Source of the DNA: Pseudaestuariivita rosea
GTDB taxonomy: Bacteria > Pseudomonadota > Alphaproteobacteria > Rhodobacterales > Rhodobacteraceae
NCBI RefSeq assembly: GCF_017592335.1
Contig: NZ_JACNMP010000006.1
Span: 62,001-126,000 of the forward strand
DNA: 64,000 nucleotides
Reading direction: 5' to 3'
The notes below the pieces were generated by a model. That model did not search any database, had not been told where the DNA came from, and was given only the letters and a program-made list of their open reading frames with translations. Shown here piece after piece: positions 21,803 to 30,416 of the stretch (positions are counted from its first letter, which is position 1; each line of letters opens with the position of its first letter). The position numbers and the translations under genes are program-made.

Positions 21803-22606
21803 CTACTGCTGTGCGACGGTCACGTCCACAGTTAATGCTTCTGACCCTGCGCCAAACCTGAGACCCGAAATCGGAGCGGCTTCACCATAGTCCAGACCCG
21901 TGGCCACACGCACATAGCGATCATCCGGTGACATGGCATTCGAGATATCGAACCCGACCCAACCGATCCCATCTATATGCGCCTCGGCCCAGGCATGCGT
22001 TGCGTCCTGCTCGGTACGGTCATCCATCATCAGATACCCCGATACATATCGTGCAGGAAAATCCATCGCCCGTGCGGCCGCAATGAAGATATGGGCGTGG
22101 TCCTGACACACGCCGGACCCGCGTTCAATGGCTGTGTCTGCGCTTGTCGCTGTATCCGTTTGTCCGATTTCGTAGCGCACTGCATCAATGATGCGGGCAG
22201 AAAGCGCATGCAAAAGGGCGATGTCGTTATCATGCGCCTCGCGCAGACCTTTGGTCAGACGGCGCACATTGGGCGTCGCCCGGGTCAGTTCCGTGGACCT
22301 TTGAAAAAGCCAAAGCGGGATGCATCCGCGCTGTTTGCCCACCACACCGTGTTCGTCTGTCGTTTCGACAAGTCCGCGACATTGAATGGTGATCTCGGTC
22401 GCCGACGGATCAAAGGAAATCAGGGTCACGTCATTGGCATGATGGTCAGTGAATTCGGTTTCGATGCGACCCCCTTCGATCTCGATCGTCCAGTTTCTGA
22501 TGGCCTGGCTTGATCGACTTTTGGGCGTTTTGCGCAGTTGCTGCAGCCCATAATGCACGGGGTGTTCAAACCGGTATTTGCTGGTGTGGCCGATGTTCAG
22601 CAGCAT
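21803..22606 (-). CDS. transglutaminase-like protein of the Anbu operon
   Basis: The 267-residue protein has an N-terminal beta-rich domain (residues 1-90) followed by a transglutaminase-like cysteine protease fold. The catalytic triad is visible: Cys in GSGVCQDHAH, His in DATHAWAEA and Asp in WVGFDISN. Such enzymes cut or join amide bonds. No signal peptide is present. It starts six bases after the alpha-E gene and precedes Anbu, so the three should be made together. Confidence 0.9.
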   Translation of the reverse strand: MLLNIGHTSKYRFEHPVHYGLQQLRKTPKSRSSQAIRNWTIEIEGGRIETEFTDHHANDVTLISFDPSATEITIQCRGLVETTDEHGVVGKQRGCIPLWLFQRSTELTRATPNVRRLTKGLREAHDNDIALLHALSARIIDAVRYEIGQTDTATSADTAIERGSGVCQDHAHIFIAAARAMDFPARYVSGYLMMDDRTEQDATHAWAEAHIDGIGWVGFDISNAMSPDDRYVRVATGLDYGEAAPISGLRFGAGSEALTVDVTVAQQ

Positions 22607-22612
22607 GGGCGC

Positions 22613-23548
22613 TCACTCCGTAAATTTAAAGTCTGTTTCAATTTCTGCCCCCAACCTGCCGGTTTCGGCCAAAAACTCGGTCAGGAATTCATGCAGACCC
22701 TCTTCGAATACCTCTTCGACGGTTTGTCGTGTCAGCCGTCTGTCCAACCGTTCGATGGTGTCATGACAGGCGTGCCAATCGCTGTATTCGGCATGAAGCA
22801 TCCTAAGATTGCTCAGTATTTTTGTCACCGAATAGCGCAGACTGCGCGGCATGCGTGGGTCGAAGATCAGAAAATCTGCGATACCCATCGGTGTCGCCTT
22901 GCCATGGTTCAGCCTGTTATAGGCGCGCACCCCGGACACCGACCGCAGGATCGTTTCCCATTGCACGTTGTCCAAAGACGACCCGACCTGCATTACCGAA
23001 GGCAGCAGCACGTAATACTTCACATCCAGGATCCGGGCGGTGTTGTCCGCGCGTTCCAGAAACGTGCCCAGGCGGCAAAAGTCGAACATATCATTCCGCA
23101 ACATTGACCCATGCAAGGTGCCGCGGACAAGGGCAGAGTGCTGCCGAATTTGTGCCAGGACATCCGGCAAATCCCGTTCGGGAACAGGACGGGCCAGTCG
23201 GTCTTTCAGGGACACATAGGCGTCATTGACGGCTTCCCAGACTTCCCGCGTGATGGCCGTGCGCACGATACGTGCGTTCTGACGGGCTTGGGAAAAGGAC
23301 GACATGACAGAGGATGGGTTACCCGGATCACGCAGCAGGAAATTGATGACACGTGATTGCTCGACTGCACCATGGTTCGCAGTATAGGCTTGGTCCGCAG
23401 CTGCCGTTTTCAGCACGCTGGCCCATTCTTCGCTTCCCGGACGCGTCAGTGCGATCCGAAAACCCGTTTCAATCAATCGTGCCGTGTTTTCGCTACGCTC
23501 CAGAGAGCGAAACATCCAGAACAGGCCACCGGCGGTCTTGCCCAGCAT
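22613..23548 (-). CDS. alpha-E domain protein (DUF403)
   Basis: The 311-residue all-helical protein starts MLGKTAGGLFWMFRSLERSENTARL, here seen as LFWMFRSLERSENTAR, and carries many conserved Glu/Arg pairs (FLERADNTARILD). This is the alpha-E family, always linked to circularly permuted ATP-grasp and transglutaminase-like genes and thought to help in peptide or amide ligation. Its ATG overlaps the stop of the ATP-grasp gene. Confidence 0.92.
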   Translation of the reverse strand: MLGKTAGGLFWMFRSLERSENTARLIETGFRIALTRPGSEEWASVLKTAAADQAYTANHGAVEQSRVINFLLRDPGNPSSVMSSFSQARQNARIVRTAITREVWEAVNDAYVSLKDRLARPVPERDLPDVLAQIRQHSALVRGTLHGSMLRNDMFDFCRLGTFLERADNTARILDVKYYVLLPSVMQVGSSLDNVQWETILRSVSGVRAYNRLNHGKATPMGIADFLIFDPRMPRSLRYSVTKILSNLRMLHAEYSDWHACHDTIERLDRRLTRQTVEEVFEEGLHEFLTEFLAETGRLGAEIETDFKFTE

Positions 23549-24978
23549 CAGTCGTCCTCCAGGACCCAGGTGTCTTTTGTGCCGCCACCCTGGCTTGAAT
23601 TGACGACAAGGCTGCCCTTTTTCAAAGCAACACGGGTCAGACCCCCTGGGATCAGCTGCACGCCGTTCGGACTGAAAAGGGCAAAGGGGCGCAGATCAAC
23701 GTGGCGCGGCGCCAGGCCGGCCTTGGTCAGAATAGGCACGGTCGACAATGCCAGCGTTGGCTGCGCAATATAACCGCCCGGTTTGGCCTGCAGCTTGGCG
23801 CGGAACTGCTCGAGTTCTTTCCTGGACGCCGCAGGGCCGACAAGCATACCGTAACCGCCTGAACCATGAACCTCTTTCACCACCAGTTCGGCCAGGTGAT
23901 CCAACACATAGGCCAAAGACTCTGGCTCAGAACAGCGCCACGTCGGCACGTTCTTCAAGATAGCATTTTCGCCCGTGTAGAACTCAACGATATCAGGCAT
24001 ATAGCTGTAAATCGCCTTGTCGTCCGAAATGCCGGTGCCGGGCGCATTTGCGATTGTGATCCGCCCGGCGCGATAGACGTCGAAAATGCCTGGCACGCCC
24101 AAAAGACTTCCAGGATTGAAATTCAGCGGATCAAGGAAATCGTCGTCCACACGGCGGTAAATGACATCGATGGGCTTGTATCCACGGGTGGTGCGCATGG
24201 CGATCCGGCCATCGCGGACCCTAAGGTCGCTGCCTTCGACCAGTTCGACGCCCATGTTATCTGCCAGAAACGCATGTTCAAAATAGGCCGAGTTGTGGAT
24301 GCCGGGGGTCAGGATCGCCACTGTCGGCTCTGGGCTGGGATCGGGCGGCATACAGGCAGCAAGCGAGGCATGTAAGGCGGTCGGATAGCCGGCAACGGGC
24401 CGTACCTTGATACTGCTGAAAAGCTCGGGAAACATCTGCAGCATCGTTTCGCGGTTTTCCAGCATGTAAGAGACACCGGACGGCGTGCGGGCGTTATCCT
24501 CAAGCACGAAAAATTCACTTTCGCCCGTTCTGACCAGATCAGTTCCGACAATGTGGGTATAGATGCCACCGGGCGGCTCGACCCCCATCATCATGGGCAG
24601 GAAAGCCTCGTTCCGGGCGATCAATTCTTTGGGCACACGGCCTGCGCGCAAAATCTCTTGCCGATGATAGATATCGTATAAAAACGCGTTGATCGCACGA
24701 ACACGCTGATCAATGCCCTTCGCCAGCAACGCCCATTCCTTACTGGATATGATGCGCGGCACGATGTCAAAGGGGATCAGCCGTTCCTCGGCATCGGCCT
24801 GACCGTAGACGTTGAATGTGATGCCGGTGCGCCTGAAAAAGGCCTCGGCTTCTTTGGCTTCCTTTATCAGTCCTTTGGGGTCTTCGCTCTGAAACCAGCT
24901 TGCATATGCGTCATAAGGCGCGCGCGTCACATCATTTATGCCGCGCATTTCATCGAAAAACTTCTGTCCGCTTGTCAT
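23548..24978 (-). CDS. circularly permuted ATP-grasp ligase
   Basis: The 476-residue protein belongs to the circularly permuted ATP-grasp type 2 group. Motifs include PFDIVPRIISSKEW, the FFVLEDNARTPSGVSYMLENR block, DVIYRRVDDDFLDPL, GTGISDDKAIYSYMPD and the ATP-binding VVKEVHGSGGYGMLVGP. It would activate a carboxylate with ATP and join it to an amine, perhaps making or extending a peptide. It is the first gene of the Anbu operon. The substrate is unknown. Confidence 0.92.
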   Translation of the reverse strand: MTSGQKFFDEMRGINDVTRAPYDAYASWFQSEDPKGLIKEAKEAEAFFRRTGITFNVYGQADAEERLIPFDIVPRIISSKEWALLAKGIDQRVRAINAFLYDIYHRQEILRAGRVPKELIARNEAFLPMMMGVEPPGGIYTHIVGTDLVRTGESEFFVLEDNARTPSGVSYMLENRETMLQMFPELFSSIKVRPVAGYPTALHASLAACMPPDPSPEPTVAILTPGIHNSAYFEHAFLADNMGVELVEGSDLRVRDGRIAMRTTRGYKPIDVIYRRVDDDFLDPLNFNPGSLLGVPGIFDVYRAGRITIANAPGTGISDDKAIYSYMPDIVEFYTGENAILKNVPTWRCSEPESLAYVLDHLAELVVKEVHGSGGYGMLVGPAASRKELEQFRAKLQAKPGGYIAQPTLALSTVPILTKAGLAPRHVDLRPFALFSPNGVQLIPGGLTRVALKKGSLVVNSSQGGGTKDTWVLEDD

Positions 24979-25269: not shown

Positions 25270-25458
25270 TCATCTTGGGTTTTCGGAATCTTCAAGCGTC
25301 AAATATCTCAAATCTCTAGGCCGACATAATTCGAACGCCATTTATAAAAGATTACATCGCTGTTCTGCGCTTACGGCATAGTTCTTCGGGTCAATGGCAG
25401 TCTGATACTGCTTCAAAATTACAGTGATCTGTTCTTCGCCAAAACGGGTTTCCGTCAT
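25270..25458 (-). pseudogene. degenerate IS3-family transposase orfA
   Basis: On the minus strand from ATG 25458 the frame reads TETRFGEEQITVILKQYQTAI, like the start of IS3 OrfA proteins. A frame change then gives EELCRK, followed by SDVIFYKWRSNYVGLEI, which matches the SDATFYKWRSKYGGLEV type of OrfA helix-turn-helix. Two stop codons and another shift to LTLEDSEN follow. No orfB or inverted ends were found. Of the 24979-25651 gap, the part before 25270 is AT-rich and shows nothing I can name. Confidence 0.7.
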
Positions 25459-25641
25459 ATCCCGGTTCAAACAACATGCTTACCTCAAATTGGAAACATC
25501 CAAGAAGGGCAGGCCAAAATCTGTTGTATGCTTGCCCAGCAGGCCAATCCGATACCGGGCGTAAATCACGATAAAAACTAAAAATAGCGGCCTATGATGC
25601 CTTCCCGAATTTCGTCTTGACTTTCTGTCTGAGCAATCAGA

Positions 25642-25663
25642 TATTTCTGTCATGACAGAAATA
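25642..25663. promoter_or_regulatory. operator palindrome O1 over the GbsR start codon
   Basis: A perfect 22-base palindrome has TTTCTGT and ACAGAAA half-sites with a four-base centre (CATG) that contains the start codon at 25652. The same half-sites and spacing recur at 26232-26251. It suggests autoregulation, or that the true start is a little downstream. Confidence 0.7.
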
Positions 25664-26215
25664 AATGACATATCTGAATCGCGTGTACGGGAACAGTTTG
25701 TTCTGTACTGGGGAAACATGGGCAGCCAGTGGGGGGTCAACCGGTCGGTTGCGCAGATCCATGCGTTGCTTTTCCTGTCGCTACAGCCAATGAATGCCGA
25801 ACAGATTTCGGAACAGCTTGGGATCGCGCGATCAAATGTCTCGAATTCGCTTAAGGAACTTGTCAGCTGGAAACTGATTCAACGTGTTCCGGTGGCAGGT
25901 GACCGGCGCGAACATTTCGCAGCCGAGACGGACGTCTGGGAAATCGCCATGCGGATTGCTCAGGGCCGCAAGGAACGTGAAATTGACCCCGCACGTATCG
26001 CCATCGCCGACTGTGTCGCGCAGGCCGAGGTGGAAGAAGGCATTAACCCGGTCGTTCTGGAACGGCTGCGAGCGATGCAAGAGTTTCTTGAGACCACAGA
26101 TAAATGGTATTCGCAAATGCTGGGTGTCCCCAAGAAACAACTGAATATGCTTATGAAAATGGGCGATAAGGTTTTTTCAGTTCTTCGGTTGACCAATCGA
26201 AAATCAGGGGAGTAA
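25652..26215 (+). CDS. GbsR/MarR-type transcriptional regulator
   Basis: The 187-residue protein starts with an acidic segment and the motif FVLYWGNMGSQWGVNRSVAQIHALLFL, here seen as YWGNMGSQWGVNRSVAQIH, typical of GbsR-like regulators. The winged helix has MNAEQISEQLGIARSNVSNSLKEL, followed by RVPVAGDRREHFAAETDVWE. A C-terminal helical part ends with MKMGDKVFSVL. Relatives act as repressors of osmolyte or membrane-related genes. Palindromes over its own start and before the next gene mark it as the controller of the three-gene set that follows. Confidence 0.9.
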   Translation: MTEINDISESRVREQFVLYWGNMGSQWGVNRSVAQIHALLFLSLQPMNAEQISEQLGIARSNVSNSLKELVSWKLIQRVPVAGDRREHFAAETDVWEIAMRIAQGRKEREIDPARIAIADCVAQAEVEEGINPVVLERLRAMQEFLETTDKWYSQMLGVPKKQLNMLMKMGDKVFSVLRLTNRKSGE

Positions 26216-26231
26216 GTTTTTTTGCCCAATA

Positions 26232-26251
26232 ATTTCTGTATAAACAGAAAT
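26232..26251. promoter_or_regulatory. operator palindrome O2 before the DUF4166 gene
   Basis: The half-sites TTTCTGT and ACAGAAA, with a four-base centre (ATAA), are identical to those of O1 at 25642-25663. It lies 27 bases before the DUF4166 start. Confidence 0.7.
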
Positions 26252-26278
26252 AACTGATATTACCGAATGAGGTGACAG

Positions 26279-26920
26279 ATGAAACATTTTATAACAGAGA
26301 TGCAGCCCGCAATAGACCACCGATTTCGCGATCTGTTGGGTGATCAAGCATGGTTTCTTTTGCCGCCGGCCATCCGCCGCAGGTTCGGCAAGCGCCTGAA
26401 GGGCGGCAGCAGCGTGACCTATCAGGGGCAGGTCGTGACCATGCGGATGACAGCTGCGGGCTGGTGTTTCGCTCAGCTTGTTCGGCTGATTGGCAGCCCT
26501 TTGCCCTATGACCGCAGCAGCGCAGGGCAGGCTGCCGTCGTTGTGGTGACCGAAGATCAGCAAAGTGACGGTCAGTTCTGGGTACGGCAGTACGGCCGGG
26601 CGCAAGGCTTTCCCCAGGTCGTTCACAGCTCAAAACGATTTGATGGGCCAACAGGGCTTGAGGAATACATCGGTTATGGCGTCGGCATGGCGCTTCTTGT
26701 TGAGGCGACCGATGACGCGCTTTACTTCAAAAGTGCTGGCTATTTCATACAGCTGCGCGGGCGTAAGTTCCGTCTGCCCAAATGGCTGACCCCCGGTGCG
26801 CTGGTGATCGGCCATCACGACATGGGCGACAGTAACTTTCTGTTTTCCCTGCATCTTTCTCATCCATTTTTTGGCGAAATGATTGCGCAAGACTGCGTGT
26901 TTCAGGACGCAAAGGAGTAA
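26279..26920 (+). CDS. DUF4166 protein
   Basis: The 213-residue product matches DUF4166: LPPAIRRRFGKRLKGGSSVTYQG near the start, later FWVRQYGRAQGFPQVVHSSKRF and ALYFKSAGYFIQLRGRKFRLPKWL. Proteins of this family are often found next to or fused with epimerases or with DoxX-like membrane parts, and their role is unknown. No signal peptide. A GAGGTGA site precedes the ATG. The gene ends three bases before the epimerase gene. Confidence 0.85.
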   Translation: MKHFITEMQPAIDHRFRDLLGDQAWFLLPPAIRRRFGKRLKGGSSVTYQGQVVTMRMTAAGWCFAQLVRLIGSPLPYDRSSAGQAAVVVVTEDQQSDGQFWVRQYGRAQGFPQVVHSSKRFDGPTGLEEYIGYGVGMALLVEATDDALYFKSAGYFIQLRGRKFRLPKWLTPGALVIGHHDMGDSNFLFSLHLSHPFFGEMIAQDCVFQDAKE

Positions 26921-26923
26921 ACC

Positions 26924-28420
26924 ATGAACGATCCCATCCTCTGGAGCCTTATTGCGATTCAGGTCGCCATGGGCGCCTTTGACACTTTGGTTCATCACGA
27001 AGGCACCGAACGTCTGGCCTGGCGACCGTCTCAGCGCCGCGAACTGCAATTGCATGGTGTGCGCAATTTCTTTTACGCGGTGATCTTTCTGACCTTTGCA
27101 TGGATCGAACCGCACGGGGTCTGGACAATGATCCTGGCCGGTATCCTGATTGTCGAGGTTCTGATCACGCTTTGGGATTTCGTGGAAGAGGATCTGACCC
27201 GCAAACTTCCAGGGACCGAGCGGATCAATCACACTCTGCTGGCCCTGAATTATGGTGCGATACTGGCCCTGGCCGCGCCCATCCTGTGGACATGGTCACA
27301 GATGCCCACAGCCCTTCTTCCCGCGAACTATGGCTGGTGGAGCGTTTTTGCGACGTTATCCGCATTGGGTGTTGGTATCTTCAGCCTGCGCGATCTGCTG
27401 GCTGCCCAAAGAAGCGAACGACTGGATCGTGGCGATCCGGCCAGACTGGTGGATGCGCTGCCGCCGCGGCAAAAGCTGCTGATCACCGGTGGCACTGGCT
27501 TTATCGGTAATCGTCTGGTCAAGGCGCTTGTGGCCGCAGGTCATGATGTGACGGTGCTGACCCGGTTCTTGCGGAACGCCGATAGCCTGGCGCATCCGGT
27601 GCGGGTGATCACGACGCTTGACGCGATCCATGCGCAGGACCGTTTCGATGCCATCATCAACCTGGCTGGTGATCCGGTGGCCAACGGTCTTTGGACGCAG
27701 AAAAAGCGCGCCCGTATCATAGCATCCCGCGTTCAGATGACCCGCGCATTGGATGCCCTGATTGACCGATTGAACGTCAAGCCGCGCGTTGTGATATCAG
27801 GCTCGGCTGTTGGGTATTACGGTCTGCAGGGTGATCAGATCCTGGCCGAGGATGCCGACCCGAAGCCGGCGTTTGTGCACGATGTCTGCAAGGCCTGGGA
27901 AGAAAGCGCTGCGCCAATCGCACGGCACGGTGTTCGGTTGGTGGTCCTGCGCATCGGTCTGGTGCTGGGTGTGGAAGGCGGGATGTTGGCCCGGTTGCTG
28001 ACACCTTTTGAGTTCGGCGGCGGGGGCGTCATGGGATCAGGCCAGCAATGGATGCCATGGATCGCCTATGACGATATGATCCGCGTGATCGCCTTTGCAA
28101 TTGCGGATGATACGCTGGAAGGGCCGGTCAATGCCACGGCACCAAACCCCGTTCGCAATGTCGATTTCACGGGGGCCTTGGCCAAGGCGCTGCATCGTCC
28201 CGCCTGGTTGCGCATACCGGCTTGGGCTATTGGTCTGTTGGGCGATATGGGGCGTGAAACGATGCTGGGCGGGCAGCGGGTTGTTCCCGCGAAACTGACG
28301 CAGCACGGGTTTGTTTTCGACCATGAGGAAATCGCACCGATGCTGGCCCGGATCACAGGGTCACGTACGGCGGGCGCTGATTTACGTCATCAAGCTTCGG
28401 TTAGGGTGTCGGACGCATAA
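26924..28420 (+). CDS. TIGR01777-type epimerase fused to an N-terminal membrane domain
   Basis: The 498-residue protein has four or five hydrophobic helices in residues 5-165, then a linker and a short-chain epimerase of the TIGR01777 type. The NAD(P) motif reads ITGGTGFIGNRLVKAL, later VISGSAVGYYG, LRIGLVLGVEGGML and MPWIAYDDMIRVIAFAI. Most relatives are about 300 residues and soluble, so the membrane part is an addition. Together with DUF4166 and under GbsR control, it may change a lipid or another membrane compound; that is inference. Confidence 0.87.
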   Translation: MNDPILWSLIAIQVAMGAFDTLVHHEGTERLAWRPSQRRELQLHGVRNFFYAVIFLTFAWIEPHGVWTMILAGILIVEVLITLWDFVEEDLTRKLPGTERINHTLLALNYGAILALAAPILWTWSQMPTALLPANYGWWSVFATLSALGVGIFSLRDLLAAQRSERLDRGDPARLVDALPPRQKLLITGGTGFIGNRLVKALVAAGHDVTVLTRFLRNADSLAHPVRVITTLDAIHAQDRFDAIINLAGDPVANGLWTQKKRARIIASRVQMTRALDALIDRLNVKPRVVISGSAVGYYGLQGDQILAEDADPKPAFVHDVCKAWEESAAPIARHGVRLVVLRIGLVLGVEGGMLARLLTPFEFGGGGVMGSGQQWMPWIAYDDMIRVIAFAIADDTLEGPVNATAPNPVRNVDFTGALAKALHRPAWLRIPAWAIGLLGDMGRETMLGGQRVVPAKLTQHGFVFDHEEIAPMLARITGSRTAGADLRHQASVRVSDA

Positions 28421-28440: not shown

Positions 28441-29217
28441 TCAGGTTTGACCGTCATAGGTCCAGCGGTACTTCGGTGGCGTTGGGCCTTTGTTGCGCCC
28501 GCCCTGTTCGGTCTGTTCCCACGCGTGGGCCAGGATGCCAACGGAACGGGACAGCACAAACAAACCTCGGGCCAGCGGGGCAGGGAAGCCAAGCTCGGCG
28601 TGAATGACCGCCGTTGCACCATCGATGTTCATCGGAACCGGTTTTGAGGCAGTTTTGGCCAGATGCTGTTCGACAGCCAACGCGATCTGACGAAAGCGGC
28701 CGGTGACGACGCCTTTGTCCGCGGCGGCCTTGACCAAAGTCATCAGGGCCGGTGCGCGGGGGTCGACCGGGTGGAAGCGGTGACCAAAACCCGGCACATA
28801 GCGACCATGGTCGCGACGCCACTGATCAACTTGCTCGGGCGCGGCATCTGGCCCACCGGCCGCGTCGATCTGATGATAAAGCTCAACAGCCTGTTCGCCC
28901 GCACCGCCATGCACATCGTCCAGCATATTGACGGCACTGGCCATCGCACCGTTCAGGGCCACCCCGCAGGTCACAGCCATGCGCGCAGTCGCGATCGAGG
29001 GCGCCTGCGGCCCGTGATCAACGGCCGCGACCAATGTCGCCTCAAGAAGTTTCGCGGCGCGGGGGTCGGGTCGTTCGCCGCGCAACATCAGCCAGATCAT
29101 CTCGGCAAAGCTAATCTGACCGATCAGATCTTCGACAGGTTGGCCGCGCAGCGCGATGCGCCCGGGCTCCATATCGATGATCGCAGTGCGCCACCAGTCA
29201 GACACATCATTCGTCAT
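28441..29217 (-). CDS. citryl-CoA lyase-like protein of the citrate synthase family
   Basis: The 258-residue protein is a short citrate-synthase-fold enzyme. The catalytic triad is kept: His in DVHGGAGE, His in GFGHRFHPVDPRA and Asp in MNIDGATAVI. Its short length and missing N-terminal part fit citryl-CoA lyase or related acyl-CoA lyases rather than citrate synthase. It overlaps the CoA-transferase gene by four bases. A likely route is import of a tricarboxylate or branched dicarboxylate, CoA transfer and cleavage to acetyl-CoA plus a keto acid; the exact substrate is not shown. Confidence 0.82.
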   Translation of the reverse strand: MTNDVSDWWRTAIIDMEPGRIALRGQPVEDLIGQISFAEMIWLMLRGERPDPRAAKLLEATLVAAVDHGPQAPSIATARMAVTCGVALNGAMASAVNMLDDVHGGAGEQAVELYHQIDAAGGPDAAPEQVDQWRRDHGRYVPGFGHRFHPVDPRAPALMTLVKAAADKGVVTGRFRQIALAVEQHLAKTASKPVPMNIDGATAVIHAELGFPAPLARGLFVLSRSVGILAHAWEQTEQGGRNKGPTPPKYRWTYDGQT

Positions 29218-30416
29218 ACAGCGCCCCCTTGCCGCAAGGCCGCAATTTCGGCGGCATCATAACCTGCGGCAGCCAGTATATCGTTAGTATCGCCACCAAG
29301 TGCGGGGGGCGGTCGGTCGACAGTGGGCGCGGCCCCGTCGATCTTGACGGCCGTTCGCACCGTTTGCACAGGCCGATCCACGCCCGGCACCCCGTCAAAC
29401 TGGCCGATCAGACCCCGGTCAGCGACCTGCGGATGGGCCAGCGCCTGGGGCACGTCCATCACCAGACCGGCGGGCACGCCGATGGCGTTCAACTCGCGGA
29501 CCCATTGGGCGGCGGGGCGGGTTTGCAAAACCGTCTCAAGATCAGCCCGCAAGGCATGTCGATTGGCTTTGCGGTTTTCCCGGTTGCTATAGTCGGCCCG
29601 CTCCAGCAGGTCCGCGCGGCCCAGGTGATGGGCCAAAGCCTCCCACTGTGTATCGCGGTTGGCCGCAATGTTCAGCAGACCGTCAGCGGCGCGAAACGTA
29701 CCCGATGGGGCCGAGGTCATGTTTTCATTGCCCACACGTGTCGGCCTGACGCCAGCCACCAGCCAGTTCGAAACGGCCCAGCCCATCGTGGCCAGCACAG
29801 CCTCCATCATCGACACATCGATCAGACAGCCCCGCGGTTTTGCGTTTAAAGCCGACGTAATCGCCATGGCCGCAGTCAGCCCGCCAATCGTATCGGCCAC
29901 AGGATAGCCGACCCGCAAGGGGTCACCCTCGGGCGTTCCGGTCAGCGCCATGACACCCGCCACACCCTGCACGATCTGGTCATAGGCAGGCCGGTCGCGC
30001 CACGGGCCATCCTGACCAAAGCCCGATATCGCGGCGTAGATCAGCGATGGATTGTCAGCGCGCAGCACATCCGGCCCAACGCCCAGGCGGTCCATCACGC
30101 CGGGGCGGAAATTTTCGACCAGAACATCCGCGTCGCGCACAAGACGGCGCAACACAGCCTTGCCGTCATCATGTTTCAGATTCACGGTGATCGACCGTTT
30201 CCCTGCGTTCTGCGCCAGGAATGACGCCCCCATATTGGCTGCATTCAGGGCCGGGTCCGCCCCAAGCTGCCGGGCCAGATCACCGCGCCCGGGCGCCTCG
30301 ACCTTGATGACATCGGCCCCCAGATGCGCAAGCTGATGACAACAAAACGGCCCCGCCAGTACGTTTGTCAGGTCAAGGACACGTATACCAGACAGAGGTT
30401 TTATGGCATTGGTCAA
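29214..30416 (-). CDS. CaiB/BaiF-family (class III) CoA-transferase
   Basis: The 400-residue protein starts PLSGIRVLDLTNVLAGPFCCHQLAHLGADVIKVEAP, of which VLDLTNVLAGPFC is the family hallmark. It has later AGKRSITVNLKHDDGK, VLVENFRPGVMDRLG and YAAISGFGQDGPWRDRPAYDQIVQG. Class III CoA-transferases move CoA between acids. It is coupled by four-base overlaps to the transporter permease upstream and the lyase downstream, so it most likely activates the imported acid. Confidence 0.93.
   Translation of the reverse strand: MTNAIKPLSGIRVLDLTNVLAGPFCCHQLAHLGADVIKVEAPGRGDLARQLGADPALNAANMGASFLAQNAGKRSITVNLKHDDGKAVLRRLVRDADVLVENFRPGVMDRLGVGPDVLRADNPSLIYAAISGFGQDGPWRDRPAYDQIVQGVAGVMALTGTPEGDPLRVGYPVADTIGGLTAAMAITSALNAKPRGCLIDVSMMEAVLATMGWAVSNWLVAGVRPTRVGNENMTSAPSGTFRAADGLLNIAANRDTQWEALAHHLGRADLLERADYSNRENRKANRHALRADLETVLQTRPAAQWVRELNAIGVPAGLVMDVPQALAHPQVADRGLIGQFDGVPGVDRPVQTVRTAVKIDGAAPTVDRPPPALGGDTNDILAAAGYDAAEIAALRQGGAV

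Follow-up and report, generated by a model that had tools for sequence, protein, structure and literature searches.

Paired palindromes at a GbsR-type regulator gene are probable operators of an autoregulated DUF4166 operon in roseobacters

Results

Two exact palindromes mark the regulator gene and the operon behind it

Two copies of the pattern TTTCTGT-N4-ACAGAAA, one lying over the start codon of a GbsR-type regulator gene and the other before the DUF4166 gene that follows it, are very probably repressor operators of the regulator encoded between them, through which it would gate both its own gene and the DUF4166 operon. They lie in a 64,000-nucleotide stretch of the Pseudaestuariivita rosea genome, here called the window (contig NZ_JACNMP010000006.1, positions 62,001 to 126,000). 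Retention of this arrangement by many marine relatives suggests genuine regulation and not chance, and the locus adds a further branch, with an operator subtype of its own, to the known autoregulated GbsR/MarR operons.

The regulator (187 aa; 25652..26215, plus strand) belongs to the MarR superfamily (MarR_2, PF12802) and is predicted to be a dimeric autorepressor. Its sequence profile matched 1ku9 (MJ223; E 2e-13), and its predicted model (mean pLDDT 85.8) returned 1ku9 at rank 1 in Foldseek (E 3e-9), with VIA-align placing 5jbr (Z 15.6), 1ku9 (Z 15.4) and 4nb5 (Z 15.0) in a tie ahead of the next rows at 10.1. Profile and predicted fold, with 1ku9 and 5jbr foremost, thus group the protein as the initial annotation of this DNA had done, and that annotation's gene calls (MarR_2, DUF4166 as PF13761 and a TIGR01777/DUF1731 epimerase) were likewise right.

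Operator 1 (25642..25663, no strand assigned) is a perfect 22-bp palindrome of 11 consecutive pairs counted outward from the centre, with the regulator ATG at 25652 inside it, and its core (25644-25661, TTTCTGTCATGACAGAAA) matches the pattern with 0 mismatches. Operator 2 (26233..26250, no strand assigned), with the sequence TTTCTGTATAAACAGAAA, has perfect half-sites around a centre that is not fully symmetric, and 28 bases separate it from the DUF4166 ATG at 26279, or 27 if the flanking pair to 26251 is counted. The initial annotation had described exactly this: the pattern present twice, once within a perfect 22-base palindrome covering the regulator ATG and once 27 bases before DUF4166 (a distance that includes the flanking pair), with constant half-sites and differing centres.

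Across the 3.89-Mb genome (87 contigs) the exact pattern has 2 matches, both at this locus, where ~0.005 would be expected at the window G+C of 0.576. Allowing up to two mismatches gives 12 places (10 besides the operators) versus 22 for the pattern read backwards, so there is no sign of further sites and no regulon is claimed; a wider regulon was considered and set aside, and the two places inspected of the ten extra ones (L003 and L004) lie inside unrelated open frames.

The operators accompany the regulator in two of its three clades

Conservation was evaluated in an even sample of 295 genomes of the family, in which regulator homologues (E 1e-20 or better) occurred in 40 genomes at 41 loci, the window's own included. 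The exact pattern was found 24 times in 20 genomes, the reversed pattern in 6. Regulators were present in 17 of the 20 pattern-bearing genomes and adjoined 21 of the 24 exact sites, so that the pattern occurred in 17/40 genomes with the regulator versus 3/255 without it (Fisher p 5e-14, with genomes treated as independent). The exact sites of those three genomes (G249, G036 and G076) each fall in an open frame with no regulator homologue within the 9-10 kb around, and were taken as chance.

Sorting the 41 loci by the next gene gave 4 in class A (DUF4166 next), 13 in class C (cytochrome bd subunit I next, identified by a shared motif in 12/13 and by Pfam PF01654 in 2/2 scanned, with L064 placed by hand) and 24 in class B, which fits neither description and has no DUF4166 match in the fetched stretch. 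In a tree of 44 class-A rows (the named set described below plus the window), 24 class-B and 12 class-C rows, each class formed one clade, with bootstrap values unsettled. Within one mismatch, operator 1 was present in 4/4 class-A, 21/24 class-B and 0/13 class-C loci, and operator 2 in 4/4, 11/24 and 0/13, rising to 18/24 in class B at two mismatches; the class-B total of 24 includes L096, which ends 69 bases past the regulator stop, and L095, judged separately, has no second operator. When the seven half-site letters were shuffled (300 draws, with 41 other orders possible) and made into palindromes, none matched within one mismatch at either place in any class of the family loci. Class-B regulators are ~40% identical to those of class A and share their operators with no DUF4166 nearby. 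The earlier tie of the operator to GbsR-DUF4166 pairs therefore stands in that the sites are kept beside these genes, but not as an exclusive link, since the sister clade has the operators without DUF4166.

Class A was enlarged by scanning GTDB species genomes with its alignment, which yielded 45 named loci; because a locus had to match one of two conserved peptides to be found, this set is not a census. It includes Sulfitobacter, Litoreibacter, Loktanella, Octadecabacter, Roseobacter, Roseovarius, Ruegeria, Tateyamaria, Tritonibacter and Roseibium/Labrenzia, and overlaps the even sample at three loci (L068, L069 and L070 are L097, L098 and L111). Two loci were left out, namely L138 (a partial match with DUF4166 present and a site at +10 with one mismatch) and L139 (45% identical, with no site and no DUF4166 in a 6.9-kb locus), so that 43 usable relatives remain. 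Beside these orthologous genes, where the initial annotation had proposed to look for conservation and had named its absence as a refutation, the start-codon site was present in 43/43 and the second site in 36/43, so that the refuting outcome did not occur.

Operator 1 coincides with a predicted leaderless start

All 43 usable relatives carry operator 1 at the same offset (38 exactly, 5 with one mismatch), and over the 44 loci that include the window it holds 1.90 bits per base versus 0.08 at -62..-41. Codon 2 is ACA in 43/44 loci versus 52/276 (19%) of threonine codons elsewhere in the regulator gene, and codon 3 is GAA in 44/44 versus 345/584 (59%); usage so far above that of the gene as a whole leaves the right half of operator 1 unexplained by protein coding. 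The palindrome centre contains the ATG in 43/44 class-A loci and in 1/23 of class B. The class-A exception, L102, has the centre TTATAA, with ATA where the other 43 loci have ATG; translation there could begin at a TTG six codons upstream. In the window itself the in-frame upstream stretch offers no alternative ATG, GTG or TTG.

A scan of 25400-26300 returned a promoter-like site whose -35 hexamer, TTGACT (25617..25622, plus strand), is separated by a 17-nt spacer from the -10 hexamer, GATATT (25640..25645, plus strand), with 6 nt from there to the ATG. Within that interval of the window alone the match is not significant (shuffles give 1.0). When the 43 named class-A loci are aligned on the ATG, TTGAC is at the identical distance in 32 and TTGA in 39, and 6 nt separate the ATG from a GATATT-like -10. 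No Shine-Dalgarno-like sequence precedes the regulator in any of the 44 class-A loci. A promoter aligned on the ATG and the lack of a ribosome-binding sequence together point strongly to a leaderless regulator mRNA whose first base would be the A of the ATG.

Operator 2 follows an A/T tract, and in class B it often holds a second start codon

Operator 2 was found within two mismatches in 36 of the 43 usable relatives (12, 14 and 10 with 0, 1 and 2 mismatches) and was absent from 7. A T tract ending in G (TTTTTTTG; 26217..26224, plus strand) lies at a fixed distance before it and is possibly part of a second promoter: at least eight consecutive A/T bases occur at -22..-5 of operator 2 in 30/37 class-A loci versus 77/8800 random places, and the A/T tract with TTTG is similar in class B. 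No clear -35/-10 pair of the kind that a simple sigma-70 reading would require was found at operator 2.

The centre of operator 2 contains an ATG in 12/18 class-B loci and in 2/37 of class A. All 12 of these class-B ATGs open frames of 138-203 codons preceded by a Shine-Dalgarno-like sequence (by a loose pattern), and in 11/12, L077 being the exception, the frame has three to five hydrophobic segments, which makes a small membrane protein the likely product. The frames of L072 and L059 (whole) and of L087 (part) matched no Pfam family. Two different genes thus have their start codon placed in the free 4-bp centre of a dyad. At L072 the regulator and small membrane-protein genes adjoin a convergent glutamate-cysteine ligase gene (GCS2, PF04107), and the same arrangement was seen, by eye only, at L071, L076 and L087; a link of such loci to thiol metabolism is possible.

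Half-sites recur one turn outside the core

Sequence conservation indicates that the operator is longer than the 7-N4-7 core of the initial annotation. In the window, an outer half-site TCAGATA (25637..25643, plus strand) lies one turn upstream of the operator 1 core, and its mirror, TAACTGA (26251..26257, plus strand), one turn downstream of operator 2; outer TCTG and inner TCTG are 9 bp apart. Against a background of 1.1%, TCNGNTA (4 of 5 or better) occupies -7..-1 of the first operator in 34/44 class-A and 21/23 class-B loci, with 1/37 and 0/18 at the second operators and 2/11 in class C. TANCNGA at +18..+24, also with a background of 1.1%, accompanies the second operator in 30/37 class-A and 9/18 class-B loci and the first operator in 23/44 and 5/23, with 1/11 in class C; the class-C counts leave out L064 and L054 (three mismatches). 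Because the left outer half-site of class A shares bases with the -10 hexamer, its conservation may in part reflect the promoter. Contacts by the wing or the N-terminus, or a second dimer, could account for the outer half-sites.

DUF4166 is the more constant partner and the third gene varies

The DUF4166 protein (213 aa; 26279..26920, plus strand; PF13761, E 8e-37) is predicted to fold as a beta barrel, possibly calycin-like (mean pLDDT 91.9), its nearest solved folds being nitrobindin, the CpeS lyase, fatty-acid-binding proteins and other barrels. The best VIA-align score was Z 9.9 over 143 residues, with several barrel families tied; Foldseek gave no match with E < 0.001, and sequence searches gave no solved relative up to E 1. 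The resemblance of the predicted barrel to these proteins makes a carrier of hydrophobic molecules plausible. Haem binding was considered and set aside; the fold match is generic. Of the 295 family genomes 57 contain DUF4166, and just 4 of these 57 carry a class-A regulator. The source genome holds a second DUF4166 domain (G000:C81:52870-53343) within a 558-codon open frame of the same length as the saccharopine-dehydrogenase fusions described below, and its contig shows no operator site within two mismatches.

Next in the window comes an NAD(P)-dependent epimerase-like, membrane-anchored protein (498 aa; 26924..28420, plus strand; TIGR01777/DUF1731), which scored 319.6 bits against TIGR01777 (YfcH) over residues 186-471, above the cut-off of 207.35. 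Its hydropathy profile shows four hydrophobic N-terminal segments (5-23, 69-87, 104-122 and 141-159), and GGTGFIG lies at 189. By labels entered by hand, the third gene of the 44 loci (window included) is this membrane epimerase in 23, a saccharopine-dehydrogenase-like gene in 20 and neither in one (L134, LysR), and no locus of the 44 has both enzymes within the stretch examined. A saccharopine-dehydrogenase NADP domain was found in 6/7 scanned members of the alternative cluster and a DUF4166 domain at the end of 3/7 (L098, L107 and L140), while at least nine loci have an intervening gene from a cluster that is DCC1-like in its three scanned members. On the tree, from which L134 was left out because it has neither enzyme, the third gene must have changed at least twice. 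DUF4166 matches lie close downstream in 43/45 named loci (the others being L139 and L140). With the epimerase replaced or missing in 21/44 loci, the regulator and DUF4166 are the more constant pair; of the module first proposed (GbsR, DUF4166 and epimerase), that pair stands, and the epimerase belongs to it in only 23/44.

On either side of the operon in the window are genes on the minus strand: divergent circularly permuted ATP-grasp, alpha-E and transglutaminase-like genes (21803-24978), ~670 bases from the regulator, and a convergent citryl-CoA lyase-like gene (NF004864, above cut-off) with a class III CoA-transferase (PF02515) at 28441-30416.

Discussion

A proposed mechanism and its alternatives

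That the palindromes are operators is well supported, and we infer from the cognate pattern of sites and regulators that the adjacent regulator binds them. A regulator dimer would bind TTTCTGT-N4-ACAGAAA with one subunit per half-site, leaving the centre unread. On operator 1 the dimer would mask the leaderless promoter from the last bases of its -10 hexamer through the transcription start to the first codons, and so shut off the regulator gene; on operator 2 it would keep DUF4166 and the NAD(P)-dependent enzyme from being transcribed, whether from a second promoter or by read-through. A signal, presumably an inducer, would release the regulator from both operators, and regulator and enzymes would then rise together. 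What the module does is by far the least certain part of this account, and our guess is that it handles a hydrophobic ligand, with the DUF4166 barrel as carrier and the Rossmann enzyme as reductase or epimerase. A fuller version, which we consider unlikely, is a lipophile-handling redox module in which interchangeable NAD(P)-dependent enzymes receive a hydrophobic ligand from the barrel, and the ligand or its precursor frees the repressor from an unusually long operator of three to four half-sites (the core dyad plus half-sites one turn out) whose core doubles as a coding start.

Repression is strongly favoured over activation. We regard activation of the downstream operon from operator 2 as quite improbable; it would suit the element before that site, a fixed A/T tract with TTTG instead of a clear -35/-10 pair, but operator 1, lying across the -10 and the start, is placed where a bound protein would repress, and the studied GbsR-type relatives CydE and CioR repress according to the accessible text of their reports (PMC6096048, PMC11837568). 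Still less probable, and very unlikely in our judgement, is that the sites are read by another protein and not by the adjacent regulator. The 3/24 exact sites of the 295-genome sample that have no adjoining regulator of this kind could be taken that way; those three, however, lie inside open reading frames, in fetched stretches with no regulator homologue. The sites otherwise accompany the regulator in two gene contexts, their half-sites vary with the regulator clade, as those of cognate pairs should, and a homologue has been footprinted on the identical geometry (PMC6096048, as far as its accessible text goes).

The placement of start codons raises the thought that the palindromes act in RNA, as a hairpin hiding the start codon and controlling translation. 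The codon is indeed central in operator 1 and in class-B operator 2 (12/18), and at the latter, with a Shine-Dalgarno-like sequence before it, a transcript would span the dyad. In class A, however, a transcript that begins where the promoter spacing places its 5' end, at the ATG, would lack the left arm of the palindrome; ATG is rare in class-B first operators (1/23) and class-A second ones (2/37); and both the sequence of the half-sites and the 4-bp centre persist from one gene context to another and vary with the clade of the regulator. Control by such a hairpin thus seems very unlikely, and we retain the reading of both palindromes as repressor operators on DNA.

Beyond the initial annotation, these comparisons add the operators of a sister clade without DUF4166, often with a start codon in the second operator, the half-sites recurring one turn outside the core, and two alternative third genes. 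The DUF4166 domain gains an assigned, if predicted, regulator and regulated operon, and one 22-bp dyad, kept across roseobacters and Roseibium, appears to serve as a repressor site while holding both the transcription start and the start codon.

Comparison with known GbsR-type and MarR-type systems

Among the GbsR proteins, the choline-betaine regulators GbsR, OpuAR and CudC have in common with the window regulator their family and the fold template MJ223 (1ku9), which was the template used for GbsR proteins (PMC6207618, accessible text). They differ in that the neighbours in the window are not osmoprotectant genes, and against the CudC model (NCBIfam NF047500) the window regulator scores 48 bits, far under the 218-bit cut-off. 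The accessible text of the same paper describes the aromatic cage for choline or betaine as absent outside the osmostress group of GbsR proteins, and remarks that family members need different operators or DNA-reading parts (PMC6207618). CrtR of Corynebacterium glutamicum, a MarR-type protein, has a transcript that is itself reported as leaderless, as predicted here for the window regulator, but, unlike the window locus, faces a divergent carotenoid operon and uses a different motif (PMC5401885, accessible text). Our search of open-licence literature found no MarR operator described as overlapping the start codon, no mention of DUF4166 by name in 5.39 million papers, and no paper that brings together three of saccharopine dehydrogenase, DCC, DUF393 and Rhodobacter; in the accessible text of the Roseobacter literature checked, GbsR appeared only as a family name or in a reference list.

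Closer relatives control cytochrome bd. CioR of Chromobacterium violaceum is a GbsR-type repressor that, unlike the regulator of the window locus, controls cytochrome bd CioAB, and no operator sequence is given in the accessible part of its report (PMC11837568). CydE of Alishewanella sp. WH16-1 is, like the window regulator, GbsR-type and encoded by the first gene of its own operon, cydEAB; reporter assays and EMSA show it to be a repressor, with sulfate as inducer (PMC6096048, accessible text, as for all statements on CydE here). Its second footprinted site, GGGATGCGCATATGCAAAT, is unlike the first and does not fit the motif, and no start-codon placement is reported in that text. The window regulator adjoins DUF4166 and not cydAB, and the class-A operator is TTTCTGT-N4-ACAGAAA and not TTTCAGA-N4-TCTGAAA, which sets it apart from the cytochrome bd subgroup in both location and operator.

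The two systems meet in the frame of their operators. CydE has in its own promoter region a 7-N4-7 dyad with TTTC...GAAA ends, a geometry common to the window operators, although its half-site is TTTCAGA where the window has TTTCTGT and its target is cytochrome bd (PMC6096048). In our class C, TTTCAGA-N4-TCTGAAA was found within one mismatch in 11/12 examined loci (the contig-truncated L064 being left out), 6 of them exactly (TTTCAGAAATTTCTGAAA), and this is the core of CydE footprint site 1, TATTTCAGAAATTTCTGAAAGTTCA (PMC6096048). Half-sites of clades A and B differ from those of C at two bases each. Clade C differs from A plus B in having S in place of A59, just before the predicted recognition helix (60-72), and M in place of N or T65, with other residue differences elsewhere in the domain, and on the structural model residues 59 and 65 may set the half-site preference. 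What emerges is a concrete and testable operator code for the GbsR family, with TTTCTGT in two sister clades, TTTCAGA in the cytochrome bd clade and a common 7-N4-7 frame. For site 1 in Alishewanella, footprinting and short-fragment EMSA were reported, with binding and repression shown (PMC6096048), and because the class-C site is the core of that footprint, a 7-N4-7 dyad bounded by TTTC...GAAA has experimental support as an operator frame of the GbsR family.
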